Of a stretch of 64,000 nt of DNA, positions 3 to 45,318 are shown in pieces. This DNA comes from Lactiplantibacillus mudanjiangensis. GTDB taxonomy: Bacteria > Bacillota > Bacilli > Lactobacillales > Lactobacillaceae. Below the pieces are notes generated by a model. It was not told the origin of the DNA. It searched no databases and saw only the letters and a program-made list of their open reading frames with translations. Position numbers and translations under genes: made by a program. The stretch lies in assembly GCF_005405385.1 (NCBI RefSeq), contig NZ_BJDY01000002.1, forward strand, positions 372,001 through 436,000, read 5' to 3'. Numbering within the stretch: position 1 is the first letter of the stretch; each line of letters opens with the position of its first letter.

Positions 3-3000
3 GCTAATGTGACGGTTACTATCACAAAAAATGGTGTCGCTTATAGTGGCACAACGATTGATTTAACTAACAATGATTCGGCTGGACTTTATGCAATTAC
101 TTATACTTATAATGATCAGGCTATGAATAACCTCATTCACTCCGCAACAGCCCATGTTACCGTAGTTGCAAATCAAGCCGCGCTTACTGTAAAAACCAAT
201 CCAACCTATCTTTATACTGGTAGTGGGTGGACCCCAAGCGCGGGCTTAGATACGGCAACCGATGTGGATGGGTCAAAAGTTACTATCGGATCTGGTACTG
301 ACGATGTTCATGTCACCGTTACGAAGGATGGTCAGTCGGTTGATATAGTCGATACGGCAACTGCTGGCACTTATGATGTGACTTACAGTTTTACGGATAA
401 GCAGGGGAATACCCACACGGCAACGACTACTGTTGTCATTACTGATCGTGATTCAGCGGTCAATGCCGGTGATAATCAAGTGATCTACAATAATGACACT
501 TACACGCCAAATACCGTGACGACAACTGAACCAAATGGGAAAGCCACCACAGCAACCGTGACCACAGTGATTAAGGATGCTGACGGAAATATTGTTGACC
601 GGATTGAGCCATCAACACCAGCCGGAACGTATACGATTACCACTAGTTTTGAGGATATGAATGGTGAGACGCAGACTGGATTATCTAAAGTGACCATTGT
701 CGATGCAACGACGGCTGTTGACGCTGGCCCTGATCAAACGTTATATTCCAATGATCCTTATACAGCCAATACCATTACGGCAAAATACGCTAATGGCACA
801 ACGGTTGATAGTAGCGATCTCACAACGACGTATCAATATATGGATACTGCCGGCAACAAGAGCAGCGTCACTGACGTTGATTTAACCAAGGCTGGGGTAT
901 ACACGATTACGTCAACGTTTAAAGATGCGAGTGGTCAAATGCAAACCGGTACTTCAACGGTCACCGTTGTTGATAAAAGTGTTGCAGTAACGCCTGGTCC
1001 GGATCAGACCTTGTATGTAGATGCGACTTATACACCAAATATCGTAACCACGACTTATGCGGATGGCACTAGTGTCCCATCAGATAAAGTGACAACTAAG
1101 ATCACGTATCAAACTGATGCAACTGCCACATCAACGCCGGTAACACAAGTTGATACGAGTACCGCCGGTATTTATACGATTACGACTAGTTTTACGGATC
1201 AGTCGGGAACCAGCCAATCAGCGTCATCAACGGTCACCGTAAAAACGGCGGAGACGACCATTAATACTGGCACTGATCAAACGTTATACGTTGACGATAC
1301 GTATACGCCAAATACGATTACGGCGAAATATCAAGATGGATCAACCGTGCCAAGCGACCAGCTAACCACGACCATTATTGATAATGAGACAAACGAACCC
1401 GTTGACCAAGTCGATACGACTAAGACTGGTTCTTACACCATTGAAACCAGTTTTACTGACCAAAATGGGAAGACGGTGACTGGCACTTCACAAGTGACGG
1501 TTGTTGCGAAAGATGGCGCAATCACGAGTTCTGATCAAACGATTTACGCCGGTGATGCTTACACATTAAGCGCTGTTACGGCGAAATACGCTGACGGAAC
1601 CGATGTACCGGCGAAAGAATTAACCACGACCTATACGCTTAACGGTGAACCAACAACTAGTGTTGATCCCAATGTTGCTGGGACTTATGAAGTCACCACC
1701 GCTTTTAATGATGGCAATGGTCAAACGATCAGCACGACTTCAACGGTGACCGTGAAGGCCGTCACTGGCGCCATTACCGCTGACGATACCACGATTTATG
1801 TTGGCGATACTGCCTGGACGCCGACGACAAGTTTAATTAGTGCGATTAATTCGGATGGCGATGACGTGATAGGTCAAGTCACGAGTACAATTAAAAACAG
1901 TGCGAGTGAAACGGTCCCAGTCATAGATACAAGCAAGCCGGGTACCTATGAAGTGACTTATCAGTTTACCGATGTCAATCAACAAGTCCAAACGAAGACG
2001 ATTACCTTAACGGTCGTTGCGGATAATGACATGATTGATTTGGCTGATAATACCACCTTTTATGTCGGTGATTCTTGGACGCCATCCGATAATGTGACTA
2101 AAGCTACGGATATTGATGGCAGTGACGTCACTGATCAAGTCACGTACACGGTGACTCAGAATGGACAAACGGTTCCTGATGTTGATATGACTCAGCCAGG
2201 AACTTATGAAGTGACTTATCGTTTTAAAAATCAACAAGGCTCGGATACAACCGCTACGCAAACGATTACCGTTTTACCAAATGACGCGGCGATTAAGTTA
2301 ACCGATCAGACCACAATTACGGCTGGTTCAAGCTGGACGCCAAGTGATAATTTAACTAGTGTGACCGATGTTGATGGGTCAGCGGTTAATTTGGACAAGG
2401 TTACGATTACCGTGACTAAAGACGGGCAAACCGTGTCTGGTGTTGACACTAACCAAGCGGGCACCTATGAAGTCACTTATCGCTTTAAAAATCAATTAGG
2501 CTCGGATACGACGGTGACGCAAACGATTACTGTGACACCTAATGCAGCCACATTGGAAGTGACACCAGCCATTACGGTAACCGCTGGCACGACTTGGGAC
2601 CCAGCAAGCGCGATATTAACGGCTATTAATACTGATGGTGGGACGGTTGACCCAAGCAGTGTGACGGTAACAATTATGCAAAATGGTCAACCAGTAACGA
2701 GTGTTGAGACGACCAAAGCGGGCACTTATCTCGTGACCTATAGTTTTGTTGATACGACTGGTCAAACACACCAAGCACAAACCACAGTAACGGTCGTAGC
2801 TGATTCGACGACAGATAATGGTGGTACAACAACACCCGACAGTGGTGACAATACGAACACGGGCAGTGCGGCGCCAAGTCAAGCGACTTCTGCGGATCGT
2901 TCAGCGGCTACCAGTGCGATCAAGCCAGGTCAGTCAACGGCTAGTCAGGCAGGTAGCGGTGCGTCACAAGCTGGTCAATTAATTGGCAGTGCCGTGTCAC

Positions 3001-3245
3001 AAGGCGTGCCATTAGTACAGGTGACTAAGGCGACAACTGACCATTCCTGTAATGCGGCAGCAGGAGCGACTATCCGGACTACGATGCAAACGACCACCGT
3101 AGCAACTCACGCAACGGCCAAAACGTTACCTCAAACTGATGAAAGTGACGTTAAAACACCCACTTTGATTGGTAGCTTATTGTTAGCATTTAGCGGTTTG
3201 CTAGGTAGTTTAGGGTTAGTTGATCGAAAACGACGTCATCAATAA
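3..3245 (+). CDS. LPXTG-anchored surface protein with tandem Ig-like repeats (5' end outside window)
   Basis: The reading frame is open from the left edge, so the signal peptide and N-terminus are missing. What is visible is about 1,080 residues. It holds one partial and ten complete repeats of roughly 85 residues, each with a 'GTYxVTYxF' strand and ending in 'TVTVV', typical of bacterial Ig-like (DUF5011-type) stalk domains. A Ser/Thr/Gly-rich linker follows. The C-terminus has a sortase signal LPQTD, a hydrophobic segment and a KRRHQ tail, so the protein should be covalently attached to peptidoglycan. The repeats are similar but not identical at DNA level, with two subtypes: 'DQTLYxxDxYTPNT' in the first half and 'SWTPSDNxTxxTDxDG' in the second. 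A role in adhesion is inferred from the architecture; the ligand-binding part, if any, lies upstream. No sortase is in the window. Confidence 0.9.
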   Translation, partial: ANVTVTITKNGVAYSGTTIDLTNNDSAGLYAITYTYNDQAMNNLIHSATAHVTVVANQAALTVKTNPTYLYTGSGWTPSAGLDTATDVDGSKVTIGSGTDDVHVTVTKDGQSVDIVDTATAGTYDVTYSFTDKQGNTHTATTTVVITDRDSAVNAGDNQVIYNNDTYTPNTVTTTEPNGKATTATVTTVIKDADGNIVDRIEPSTPAGTYTITTSFEDMNGETQTGLSKVTIVDATTAVDAGPDQTLYSNDPYTANTITAKYANGTTVDSSDLTTTYQYMDTAGNKSSVTDVDLTKAGVYTITSTFKDASGQMQTGTSTVTVVDKSVAVTPGPDQTLYVDATYTPNIVTTTYADGTSVPSDKVTTKITYQTDATATSTPVTQVDTSTAGIYTITTSFTDQSGTSQSASSTVTVKTAETTINTGTDQTLYVDDTYTPNTITAKYQDGSTVPSDQLTTTIIDNETNEPVDQVDTTKTGSYTIETSFTDQNGKTVTGTSQVTVVAKDGAITSSDQTIYAGDAYTLSAVTAKYADGTDVPAKELTTTYTLNGEPTTSVDPNVAGTYEVTTAFNDGNGQTISTTSTVTVKAVTGAITADDTTIYVGDTAWTPTTSLISAINSDGDDVIGQVTSTIKNSASETVPVIDTSKPGTYEVTYQFTDVNQQVQTKTITLTVVADNDMIDLADNTTFYVGDSWTPSDNVTKATDIDGSDVTDQVTYTVTQNGQTVPDVDMTQPGTYEVTYRFKNQQGSDTTATQTITVLPNDAAIKLTDQTTITAGSSWTPSDNLTSVTDVDGSAVNLDKVTITVTKDGQTVSGVDTNQAGTYEVTYRFKNQLGSDTTVTQTITVTPNAATLEVTPAITVTAGTTWDPASAILTAINTDGGTVDPSSVTVTIMQNGQPVTSVETTKAGTYLVTYSFVDTTGQTHQAQTTVTVVADSTTDNGGTTTPDSGDNTNTGSAAPSQATSADRSAATSAIKPGQSTASQAGSGASQAGQLIGSAVSQGVPLVQVTKATTDHSCNAAAGATIRTTMQTTTVATHATAKTLPQTDESDVKTPTLIGSLLLAFSGLLGSLGLVDRKRRHQ

Positions 3246-12574: not shown

Positions 12575-12634
12575 TACTGTTAATCCTCATTTCGTTAAGT
12601 TCAATTTTAACTTTAAAGGAAAAGGGTAGCCGAG

Positions 12635-13154
12635 TAAAGGTTGAATGTCATTTTTAGCAATAATCGGTGATATGACAAGTATATTCACCGATTAAAAATA
12701 GATCGGCTTGCCACCTACCGTTCGCCCACCTTGAGCCGGAACGCTGTGGGCGGACCGGTTCAGCCAAAAGGCGGTCTGAACCATCGTTTTGAACCGCCTA
12801 ACCCGCGTTTCAAAAGCGCCGGTCTCTAAGCGATAAATCGCTAAGAGACCCCACGGCTGGGCTCAATTTGGACTCACTCTCGGTTATGTTAGTGATTACT
12901 ATTCGTATTCGCGATATAACCGGAGCCAGCCCAGTGATGGCGCCGGCCGTGAAAACAGCGTTAGTCCGGATGATTTTCCCGGGCTTACGCTGTGGACGAC
13001 TTTTGAGACTAGCGGTTTGGGCTAGGCTTAAAAGCGAGGTGAAAGCCCGCATTTTGGCTGGAGCCGTTCCCACAGCTGGCAGAATCACTGGCTGGCGTAG
13101 GTGACCAATTTAGTCACACTCTACAGTAAGGCATATTTATCTTTCAATCTTTAG
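12635..13154 (+). mobile_element. MITE-like structured intergenic element, copy A (full length)
   Basis: This 520-bp element starts TAAAGGTTGAATG and ends CTTTCAATCTTTAG, an imperfect terminal inverted repeat. It shares long near-identical stretches with copy D (44781-45318), including 'CTACCGTTCGCCCA', 'AACGCTGTGGGCGGACCGGT' and 'GCGAGGTG', and with copy C in reverse. It is rich in hairpins, such as 12821-12850 and 12957-12993. Open frames inside it (for example 12868-13104 on plus and 12810-13088 on minus) are not shared with the other copies and look accidental, so I treat it as non-coding. It ends about 135 bp before the EIIA-like gene. Confidence 0.75.
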
Positions 13155-14870: not shown

Positions 14871-15071
14871 CTAAAGGTTGAAAGCTGAATTTTAGACTTA
14901 ACCATTGATGGGATAGGCATTTAACGGTCAAAAATAGTGAAACTTGCCGCCTACCGTTCGCCCAATTCGGGCCCAGATTAGACTCACTGACAGCCGGAGG
15001 TGACTAATTTAAGGATATTCAAGTCAGCTCTAGCAAGGTCCTACTAATGATGAGTAAGTTTCAACCTTTAG
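14871..15071 (+). mobile_element. MITE-like element, copy B (internally deleted, about 200 bp)
   Basis: It begins CTAAAGGTTGAAAG and ends TTTCAACCTTTAG, near-perfect terminal inverted repeats. It keeps the family's left segment ('CTTGCCGCCTACCGTTCGCCCA') and right segment ('AGGTGACTAATTTA') but lacks about 320 bp of the middle. Flanks TAGTGTCTAA (14861-14870) and TAGTGTTTAA (15069-15078) match at 9 of 10 positions, compatible with a target duplication. The right end overlaps the TAA stop codon of the histidine kinase gene at 15068-15070. Confidence 0.75.
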
Positions 15072-25130: not shown

Positions 25131-25495
25131 CTAAAGCTTGAAAGATGATTAGCGTAGTAAAAAATCTACTAGTATTGGCCTGAGTCATGCTAAATTAGTC
25201 ACCTACGTCAGCCAGTGATTCTGCCGGCTGTGGAGACCGGCTCCAGCCAAAGTGCGGGCTTCCACCTCGCTTTTAAGCCTAGCCAAAGCCGCTAGTCTCA
25301 AAAGTCGTCCACATCGTAAAGTCCGGGAAAACCATTCGAACTAACGATGTCGTCACGGCCGGCGCCATCACTGGCTGACTCCGGTTATATCGTGCACACA
25401 AATTGAATTAGAAATCGTTATTATAACCGAGAGTGAGACCATCTTGAGCCTGAACGTTAGGTGGCAAGTCGGTCTATTTTTGATCAGTGTCCCGT
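25131..25495 (-). mobile_element. MITE-like element, copy C (inverted, one end missing)
   Basis: Read on the minus strand, this 365-bp stretch matches copies A and D, including the 'CTTGCCACCTA' segment, the GGTTATA region, the covarying hairpin (25311-25350) and the final 'CTTTCAAGCTTTAG'. In window orientation it starts CTAAAGCTTGAAAG at 25131. The other terminal repeat is absent: similarity fades about 70 bp short, at the stop codon of gtrA. It is therefore truncated, and internally shorter than A and D. Confidence 0.7.
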
Positions 25496-25499
25496 CACA

Positions 25500-25913
25500 T
25501 TAGTGATTGTTGTTAAAAATAAGATATTTACTGAAAAACCAATTAATCATAACGATCAAGATTTGATCAATCAATTTGACGATTAAAGGTGATCTTGCTA
25601 ATAGGCTAATCCCGATTAACATAATCAATTCATCTAATCCTAAACTTAGTAGGCGATACCAAAGAAATTGAAGACTTTCTTTCAAACGAGCTGACCAACT
25701 TTGAGCACTTGTTTCAAAGACCCATTGTCGGTTGGTAAAATAAGCAAAAATTACTGACCCTAACCATGCCAAAGCATTACTAAACAAATAGGGGACACTC
25801 AATTTGGTTAAACCGGCAAATAACGCTAGGTTAATGAGTGTCGTTAGCCCACCAAAAACTAAATAAGCCAAGACACGCTGATAGCGACGCCAGTAATTTG
25901 TTAATCGTTGCAT
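25500..25913 (-). CDS. GtrA-family small membrane protein (polyprenyl-linked sugar flippase)
   Basis: The 137-residue protein has four membrane helices and the GtrA family look: 'VLAYLVFGGLTTLINLALF', 'NALAWLGSVIFAYFTNRQWVFE' and a C-terminal 'INWFFSKYLIFN'. GtrA proteins are thought to flip undecaprenyl-phosphate-linked sugars across the membrane. It lies 15 bp behind the DedA gene and probably shares its mRNA. Together with the two GtrB-type enzymes and two GT-C-like proteins in the same 13 kb it would complete a GtrA/GtrB/transferase route. The stop codon abuts the broken end of element C. Confidence 0.88.
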   Translation of the reverse strand: MQRLTNYWRRYQRVLAYLVFGGLTTLINLALFAGLTKLSVPYLFSNALAWLGSVIFAYFTNRQWVFETSAQSWSARLKESLQFLWYRLLSLGLDELIMLIGISLLARSPLIVKLIDQILIVMINWFFSKYLIFNNNH

Positions 25914-44780: not shown

Positions 44781-45318
44781 CTAAAGGTTGAAAGCTACTT
44801 TTTAGCAATAATCGTTGATATGATAAGCATTCATCGATCAAAGGTAGTCATACTTGCCACCTACCGTTCGCCCACATTGAGCCGGAACGCTGTGGGCGGA
44901 CCGGTTCAGCCCAAAAGCGGTCTGAACCGTCGTTTTGAACCACTAAACCCGTGTTTCAAAAACGCCAGTCTCTAAGCGATAAATCGCTAAGAGACTCCCA
45001 CGGCTGGGCTCAGTGTGGACTCACTCTCGGCTATGTTAGTGACTACAAACTTGATTAACTTCTAAGCGAAGCCAGCCAGTGATGGCGCCGGCCGTGAAAA
45101 TATCGTTAGTCCGGATGTTTTTCCCGGACTTTACGATATGGACGACTTTTGAGAATAGTGGTTTTTGCTAGTCTCAAAAGCGAGGTGGAAGCCCGCACTT
45201 TGGCTGGAACCGGTCCCCACAACCGGCAGAATCGCTGGCTGGCGTAGGTGGCAATTTAATCCAACTTAAGTCAATGTTGGTAAGGTTTCGACCAATACAT
45301 TTAACTTTCAACCTTTAG
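44781..45318 (+). mobile_element. MITE-like structured intergenic element, copy D (full length, 538 bp)
   Basis: Terminal repeats CTAAAGGTTGAAAG and CTTTCAACCTTTAG are nearly perfect. The body matches copy A in the same orientation over most of its length. Hairpins at 44967-44996 and about 45094-45132 correspond to those in A with compensating base changes. The flanks GCTGTTTTA (left) and GCTGTTTCA (right) match at 8 of 9. A TTTCAACCT sequence at 44755-44764, just outside the left end, looks like the remnant of another terminal repeat, so the flanking similarity may come from a tandem copy rather than a target duplication. Confidence 0.78.

Follow-up and report, generated by a model that had tools for sequence, protein, structure and literature searches.

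We have found that the intact copies of a small repeated element each contain two modules of about 165 nt, inverted relative to one another and with the layout of a four-way junction, a pair of covarying structures in the interior of the element that goes beyond the sequence-only reading which this analysis followed up. The reading that we prefer, by a modest margin, is that the MITE is the vehicle of a conserved cargo, a structured module that probably acts as RNA and would insulate or stabilize the 3' ends of transcripts. The function of the cargo is inferred, without expression data.

The window, i.e., the whole stretch of DNA analyzed (64,000 nt, C2:372001-436000 of its own genome, G000, of 3,289,607 bases in 13 contigs), had been described as carrying four MITE-like copies with shared ends and internal similarity. 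This held: all four (c1 to c4) are present and can be aligned with each other, c3 being 36 bases longer than had been given. The features are listed below with their matches to R1, a covariance model of 137 positions built on 28 modules.

12634..13154, plus strand: MITE copy c1, with two modules, decayed end repeats (2 and 1 mismatches) and no clear target duplication.
12742..12858, minus strand: short structured module of c1 (R1 64.8 bits, E 2.7e-15; outside the R1 training set).
12940..13082, plus strand: long structured module of c1 (R1 112.4 bits, E 5.4e-28; in the R1 training set).
14871..15071, plus strand: MITE copy c2, 201 bp, internally deleted, end repeats with 0 and 1 mismatch.
25131..~25531, minus strand: MITE copy c3, inverted, left end decayed, short module degraded.
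25221..25365, minus strand: long structured module of c3 (R1 110 bits, E 2.3e-27; in the R1 training set).
44781..45318, plus strand: MITE copy c4, 538 bp, the intact reference copy, both end repeats exact.
44781..44794, plus strand: left terminal inverted repeat of c4, CTAAAGGTTGAAAG (end-motif scan).
44888..45005, minus strand: short structured module of c4 (R1 61.7 bits, E 1.9e-14; outside the R1 training set).
45085..45229, plus strand: long structured module of c4 (R1 110.6 bits, E 1.6e-27; in the R1 training set).
45305..45318, minus strand: right terminal inverted repeat of c4, CTTTCAACCTTTAG (end-motif scan).

R1 finds five modules in the window, including the two short ones that were absent from its training, and the window elements with a module pair have one short and one long module. 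No module was detected in c2, where they have been deleted, and the only one detected in c3 is the long one. The GC content of c4 is 35% and 33% at its AT-rich ends and 52% in the interior; this copy is flanked by a target duplication of 8 bp with 1 mismatch (ctgtttta/ctgtttca). The sequences adjoining c2 are TGTCTAA/TGTTTAA and those adjoining c3 TTTTTCA/TTTTTAA. The copies had been said to share no open frame, which held (there is no ORF of 100 aa or more inside any of the four), and to be intergenic, which mostly held, c3 overlapping the final 32 bases of the ORF 25500-25913. Their location mostly just past terminators held only in part: c2 and c3 sit between convergent genes and c4 between two genes of the same strand, and c1 is upstream of both its neighbors, an 83-aa ORF on the minus strand and a PTS EIIA gene. 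The absence of a transposase from the window was also borne out in part, in that none was found when 10 ORFs close to the copies were scanned (non-transposase families account for 9, and 1 is unmatched) and that the transposase of the partner insertion sequence (IS) described below is unmatched in G000. Elsewhere in the window (1909-2544), direct repeats at a spacing of 258-261 nt were seen within the large ORF 9-3245.

The suspicion of a high-copy family in the genome held. When c4 was compared with G000, 40 out of 40 scored candidates (drawn from 224 first-look candidates) matched over 400 nt or more at 83-100% identity, together with one 30-base match, and the end motif CTAAAGGTTGAAAG (up to 1 mismatch) gave 132 matches as against 0 for its reversed control. 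The end-paired elements, 41 in number and including a few spurious pairings, span 193-664 bp, 29 of them falling at 500-549 bp. Target duplications of 7-9 bp (up to 1 mismatch) flank 31 of these 41 elements and only 30 of 1640 mispaired flanks; the best-fitting length is eight bases and the target sites are AT-rich. The criteria for a MITE regarding terminal inverted repeats, target duplications and short length without a transposase gene are met, and the MITE-like nature proposed before is supported by the end repeats, the duplications, the lack of a long frame, the copy number and the existence of ISs with the same ends.

The proposal would have been refuted had all copies been fixed at the same loci in related species, without empty sites, or had no further copies appeared outside the window. 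Neither is the case: copies are numerous beyond the window, and of 7 loci inspected in other species 6 have no c2 downstream of their related glycosyltransferase gene (the orthology of these genes is unproven). The seventh locus has a different insertion with its own duplication. In G011, a gene related to the glycosyltransferase gene beside c2 has downstream of it a distinct 198-bp element (L197 1261-1458, G011:C7), whose ends are similar and which is flanked by a target duplication of its own; this may be an insertion hot spot. No clean, base-exact empty site was obtained. At the c1 locus in G003 the matching interval lacks the end pair but is larger, which leaves no clear empty site, and five large indels between G004 and G017 inspected for insertion polymorphism showed no new module-bearing copy, one of them falling within an 895/1231-bp element (see below). 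There was no match of c4 in plasmid and phage collections, and an exact 20-base core found nothing in a collection of genome contigs from which its own genome was possibly left out.

The earlier suggestion to look for an IS with matching terminal repeats was fruitful in the relatives G001, G004 and G012. The IS of G001 is 1567 bp long, has a frame of 457 codons and 1 mismatch at its left end, and is flanked on both sides by GATAGGAG (7 bp if both outer bases are assigned to the element). Its transposase scored 460.3 bits against NCBIfam NF049925 (IS4 family, cut-off 250) and was likewise above the cut-off for PF13546 and PF01609. Relatives in G004 and G012 have exact 13-base ends and proteins 56% and 57% identical, respectively, to that of G001. 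No exact repeat was found at the flanks of the G004 IS; 9 bp are repeated beside that of G012, where the transposase is disrupted by a stop codon. The transposase query found some match, several of them weak or broken, in 7 of the 21 genomes of the genus and none in G000. The possibility of an autonomous copy in G000 was rejected given this negative query and the lack of duplications, by eye, at pairs longer than 700 bp in 20 stretches around mostly unpaired end motifs; the short pairs in the same stretches have matching duplications. Also rejected was an origin of the MITE as a remnant, i.e., a direct deletion derivative, of the IS, because none of five loci with transposases of the G001 IS group contains the module. 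The simplest reading, which we consider likely, is that the MITE is an orphaned passenger of this IS4-family group, its movement in trans being inferred.

A scan of 229 sequences (about 1.71 Mb) found 11 end pairs more than 700 bp apart, the most conspicuous being the IS of G001. An end pair in G017 (895 bp) and the one corresponding to it in G004 (1231 bp) also have similar flanks, but no transposase frame. We observed that this element (L226 6530-7760 in G004, L219 10053-10947 in G017) has similar end repeats (1 and 2 mismatches) between flanks that are A-rich and repeated. The G004 version carries two genes, the first Gp49-like (PF05973) and the second of the helix-turn-helix type, which resemble a toxin-antitoxin pair; that of G017 retains only the second.

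The strong folding of c4 (z of about -10.9 on one strand and -10.6 on the other) is due to the two inverted copies of one module inside it. The module has an outer stem P1, a hairpin P2 and a short stem P5 that encloses hairpins P3 and P4. Its consensus structure, derived from the 28 modules (the 3 long ones of the window and 25 found in seven further genomes of the genus), has 50 base pairs over P1, P2, P5, P3 and P4. In these modules 91.8% of the cells are paired, as against 31.6-42.6% in slid controls, and two-sided changes affect 38 of the 50 pairs, a number not reached in any of 500 shuffles. The covariation score was 0.538, compared with 0.067-0.097 when partners were slid and 0.183 in shuffles. 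The structure of the module is conserved through two-sided changes across genera. A larger alignment, with 150 of 152 matches included (145 distinct rows), shows that the P4 cap is strongly conserved, with the consensus AGACCGCnnnTnGGCT in which each capital is present in at least 80% of the 150 modules, and parts of this cap and of the base of P3 have one letter at 90-100%.

Two-sided changes can also arise without structural selection. The correction of quasi-palindromes is an established mutational process, and by neutral template-switch repair the self-correction of hairpins during replication would produce them. In favor of this, the hairpins P2-P4 are better paired (91.5-97.3% of cells) than the long-range P1 (82.3%). 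Against it are the nearly invariant parts of the P4 cap and P3 base, the maintenance of the four-helix layout across genera and a wobble asymmetry that tracks the sense strand of the module, this last with the limits described below. We regard this explanation as very unlikely.

The modules are far more widespread than the MITE family of the window. All genome counts are lower bounds, with at most 150 candidates scored per genome and 8 to 11 in the wide searches. R1 has matches in 19 of the 21 genomes of the genus, with at least 150 copies each in G000, G005 and G020 and 27 matches at E up to 0.01 in a 400 kb sample of G001; the best matches are weak (42-58 bits) in G006, G008, G010, G012 and G014-G016, and G018 and G019 have none even at E up to 1. 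Of 301 genomes searched in the family Lactobacillaceae 80 gave matches, and these represent 13 of its 40 genera sampled; a search of the order gave matches in 12 of 295 genomes, 11 of them from the same family, and a thin sample of the class in 1 of 398, which was its own genome. The exception at the order level, G420, belongs to another family of Lactobacillales and has three copies with a similar core and different outer stems. Its repeats were seen to be modular, with full and truncated forms of an R1-like core side by side (L244 300-1470, L246 1480-1660) and one set of outer stems with GACTTCT/AGAAGTC. A looser fixed pattern run against genome contigs found 64 stretches, and the named carriers include many Levilactobacillus species (L. 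brevis CD0817 among them), Lactiplantibacillus herbarum and fabifermentans, Companilactobacillus and two Lactobacillus sp. records. It could be argued that these are chance similarities of unrelated GC-rich palindromes, palindromic repeats being common in bacteria. The full-length matches above 100 bits in several genera, together with the covariation, refute this for the strong matches, and we consider it all but excluded.

We examined the arrangement and context of the modules in clusters from the 64 named stretches, the G001 sample (omitting the weakest of its 27 matches) and the window. Neighboring modules within 450 nt were oriented '-+' in 55 cases, '--' in 10, '++' in 3 and '+-' in none, so that opposite-strand neighbors are divergent in 55 of 55 cases; 12 further pairs are all '-+'. 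The two members of a pair often differ in length, one being long and the other short. An alignment of 14 Levilactobacillus elements shows conservation of both modules and, by eye, none of the spacer and flanks; a few of these elements have decayed end repeats. End repeats (at least 11 of 13 bases) were detected at 12 of 175 module flanks in the named genomes (2 of 165 control windows) and at 6 of 34 in G001 (0 of 33). The vehicle of the modules outside G000 is uncertain, as most have no recognizable end repeats.

One rival explanation makes the module an independent RNA gene or regulator acting in trans, for which the MITE is merely a vehicle of dispersal. The sequence-specific conserved caps plus the covariation speak for it, as does the low-copy presence in another family with different outer stems. 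Against it, the spacer between the divergent arms is unconserved by eye and gives no sign of a conserved promoter, and 150 or more copies would be unusual for an RNA gene acting in trans. We find this rival unlikely.

Tandem arrays of modules with a period of about 271 nt also exist, and at the same locus L. mulengensis has one unit and two relatives three (L122 has one). We observed the triple arrays, of same-strand modules with a period near 271 nt, at L150 5414-6099 and L165 4100-4787. Elsewhere, a single module (L123 2930-3125) has at the same place of another Levilactobacillus species only a short remnant (L132 3430-3460), a difference resembling the loss of a hairpin. Different left modules and different numbers of modules at one locus in two species (L148 1063-2489 and L159 3745-4737) suggest recombination between repeats.

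With genes called by a simple ORF rule, 111 of 113 clusters lie outside predicted ORFs, a figure that favors the intergenic reading, as ORFs of less than 900 bases covering more than half a module had been removed first. Thirty clusters sit between convergent and 9 between divergent genes, the background being 91 and 86. Clusters are under-represented in divergent, i.e., promoter-side, intervals. These counts are not fully independent: L131 and L146 come from two records of a single locus, and related species share the loci L111/L144/L149 and L122/L150/L165. Single modules between same-strand genes are in sense with them in 8 cases and antisense in 17, and a simple role in the sense 3'-UTR is not favored because there is no enrichment in the sense of the flanking gene. 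The module is also probably unlike an intrinsic terminator, as runs of TTTTT within 60 nt downstream were not clearly enriched (17 of 148 modules, 62 of 745 random windows).

The kind of mismatch tolerated in the stems may bear on the molecule that folds. We aligned 41 elements of G000 and considered only pairs predicted on both strands. The non-Watson-Crick cells of the right module are 101 G.U and 33 A.C, and those of the left module, of opposite orientation, 30 and 59. The wobble may thus favor the sense strand of each module, as would be expected for RNA or single-stranded DNA. There are several reservations. Counted by pair the asymmetry is present in the right module (26 vs. 8 pairs) and absent from the left (16 vs. 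17). On the plus strand, G.U outnumbers A.C outside the modules as well (72 vs. 37). The cells are related by descent, and an excess of C-to-T change on a transcribed strand would mimic the effect. In 145 distinct modules aligned to the model we counted 285 G.U and 121 A.C; this alignment is biased toward the model, and 78 of the G.U cells come from a single apical pair. The RNA reading gains no support from the left-module and outside-module controls, for which reason we rate both the preferred reading and the bolder one set out below slightly lower.

Evidence of selection after insertion comes from orthologous copies. Among 19 orthologous module pairs (one identical), 10 between Levilactobacillus species, chosen to avoid redundancy, were used and one more distant pair was treated apart; two L150 modules occur twice among the 10. 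The 10 pairs have 70 substitutions, 25 of them in paired columns, and only 8 broken pairs as against 29.2 (sd 3.2) simulated, with 0 of 1000 simulations as low. Two-sided changes that kept pairing were 2 vs. 0.5 simulated (97 of 1000 as high), and since they are so few the signal of selection is one of avoidance of breaks. The distant pair has 11 two-sided and 7 broken (3.0 and 20.3 simulated), and the 18 differing pairs together 30 broken (89.6 simulated). Pairing is preserved at orthologous copies after insertion. Gene conversion among copies is a possible mimic of, or contributor to, this apparent selection.

A purely selfish MITE, in which the modules serve the element alone, for instance by helping transposition or copying as single-stranded or cruciform DNA, with no benefit to the host, remains possible. 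The high copy number, the mostly intergenic placement, the end repeats and the target duplications fit it, and the pneumococcal repeats BOX, RUP and SPRITE were interpreted as parasitic by their authors (PMC3049150). Against it, ISs with the same ends do without the module, modules are conserved where end repeats are unrecognizable, and the stems remain paired in orthologous copies already inserted, for which transposition should have ceased to be relevant.

In the reading that we prefer, that of a MITE with a functional structured cargo, each copy is a non-autonomous transposon, probably moved in trans by an IS4-family IS of about 1.56 kb with matching ends. The cargo is the inverted pair of modules and not a remnant of the IS; its origin is unknown. 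The module would act as a folded single strand, most likely as RNA from neighboring transcripts that run into the element. Since the two arms have opposite orientations, transcription from either direction would meet one sense copy, and the element would serve as a 3'-end structure, independent of orientation, that insulates or stabilizes the flanking transcripts. Such an effect would make insertions tolerable or useful and would explain the large copy number. A bolder reading, to which we give rather less than even credence, is that of an undescribed and exceptionally abundant class of structured nucleic acids that selection keeps where they have inserted and that act at gene ends, in either orientation, at the RNA level, spread through hijacked IS4-family transposases and reaching at least 150 copies in some genomes and many genera of Lactobacillaceae. 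If the module does act as RNA, the expression of many genes of lactobacilli could be affected. The element also provides an opportunity to test the dispersal of a structured sequence by a DDE transposase.

Regarding known systems, Rfam gave no match at gathering score in the whole window and only 5 matches in 3 loci below threshold. We found no description of the repeat in lactobacilli in the open-access literature searched, which is consistent with the statement in the sequence-only reading that none was known to it. In the relevant passages of two stem-loop surveys the only lactobacillus named is L. johnsonii, and the term 'lactobac' is absent from a review of MITEs. It is likely that the module is an apparently undescribed structured family and the element a MITE with an IS4-family partner. 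The closest known kind are the BOX, RUP and SPRITE repeats, which are also small, strongly folded and present in high copy number (PMC3049150). BOX is modular (boxA/B/C), with 125 copies in one genome, and mobilization in trans by ISs with similar ends has been proposed for BOX and RUP; the three are almost absent beyond S. pneumoniae and S. mitis, with relatives of BOX in S. suis (PMC3049150). In contrast, the modules described here are covarying four-way junctions in inverted pairs, found in 13 sampled genera of one family and in one genome of another, although no comparison with BOX sequences was made.

The REP/BIME of enterobacteria and pseudomonads are intergenic palindromes, often of alternating orientation (PMC2817692), a likeness to what we find. 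REPs consist of one short hairpin each and are associated with RAYT transposases. The module, of about 165 nt and four helices, does not meet the criterion of a short single hairpin, and lies inside an element with IS4-type ends and target duplications of 7-9 bp. HEARO, GOLLD, ROOL and OLE are large structured bacterial RNAs, partly linked to mobile DNA. Our element differs from them in having no Rfam match at gathering score and in its paired inverted layout, and none of them is known to us with as many copies per genome; if the module acts as RNA, few large structured RNAs known to us would be as abundant in a bacterial genome. The likeness to IS4-family ISs (NF049925) and their MITEs lies in the same ends of 13-14 bp and duplications of 7-9 bp; the difference lies in the interior of the MITE, which is conserved in its own right and to whose modules nothing in the ISs corresponds. 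The interiors of MITEs are usually regarded as leftovers; here the interior is the part that evolution has kept across genera while the remainder changes.
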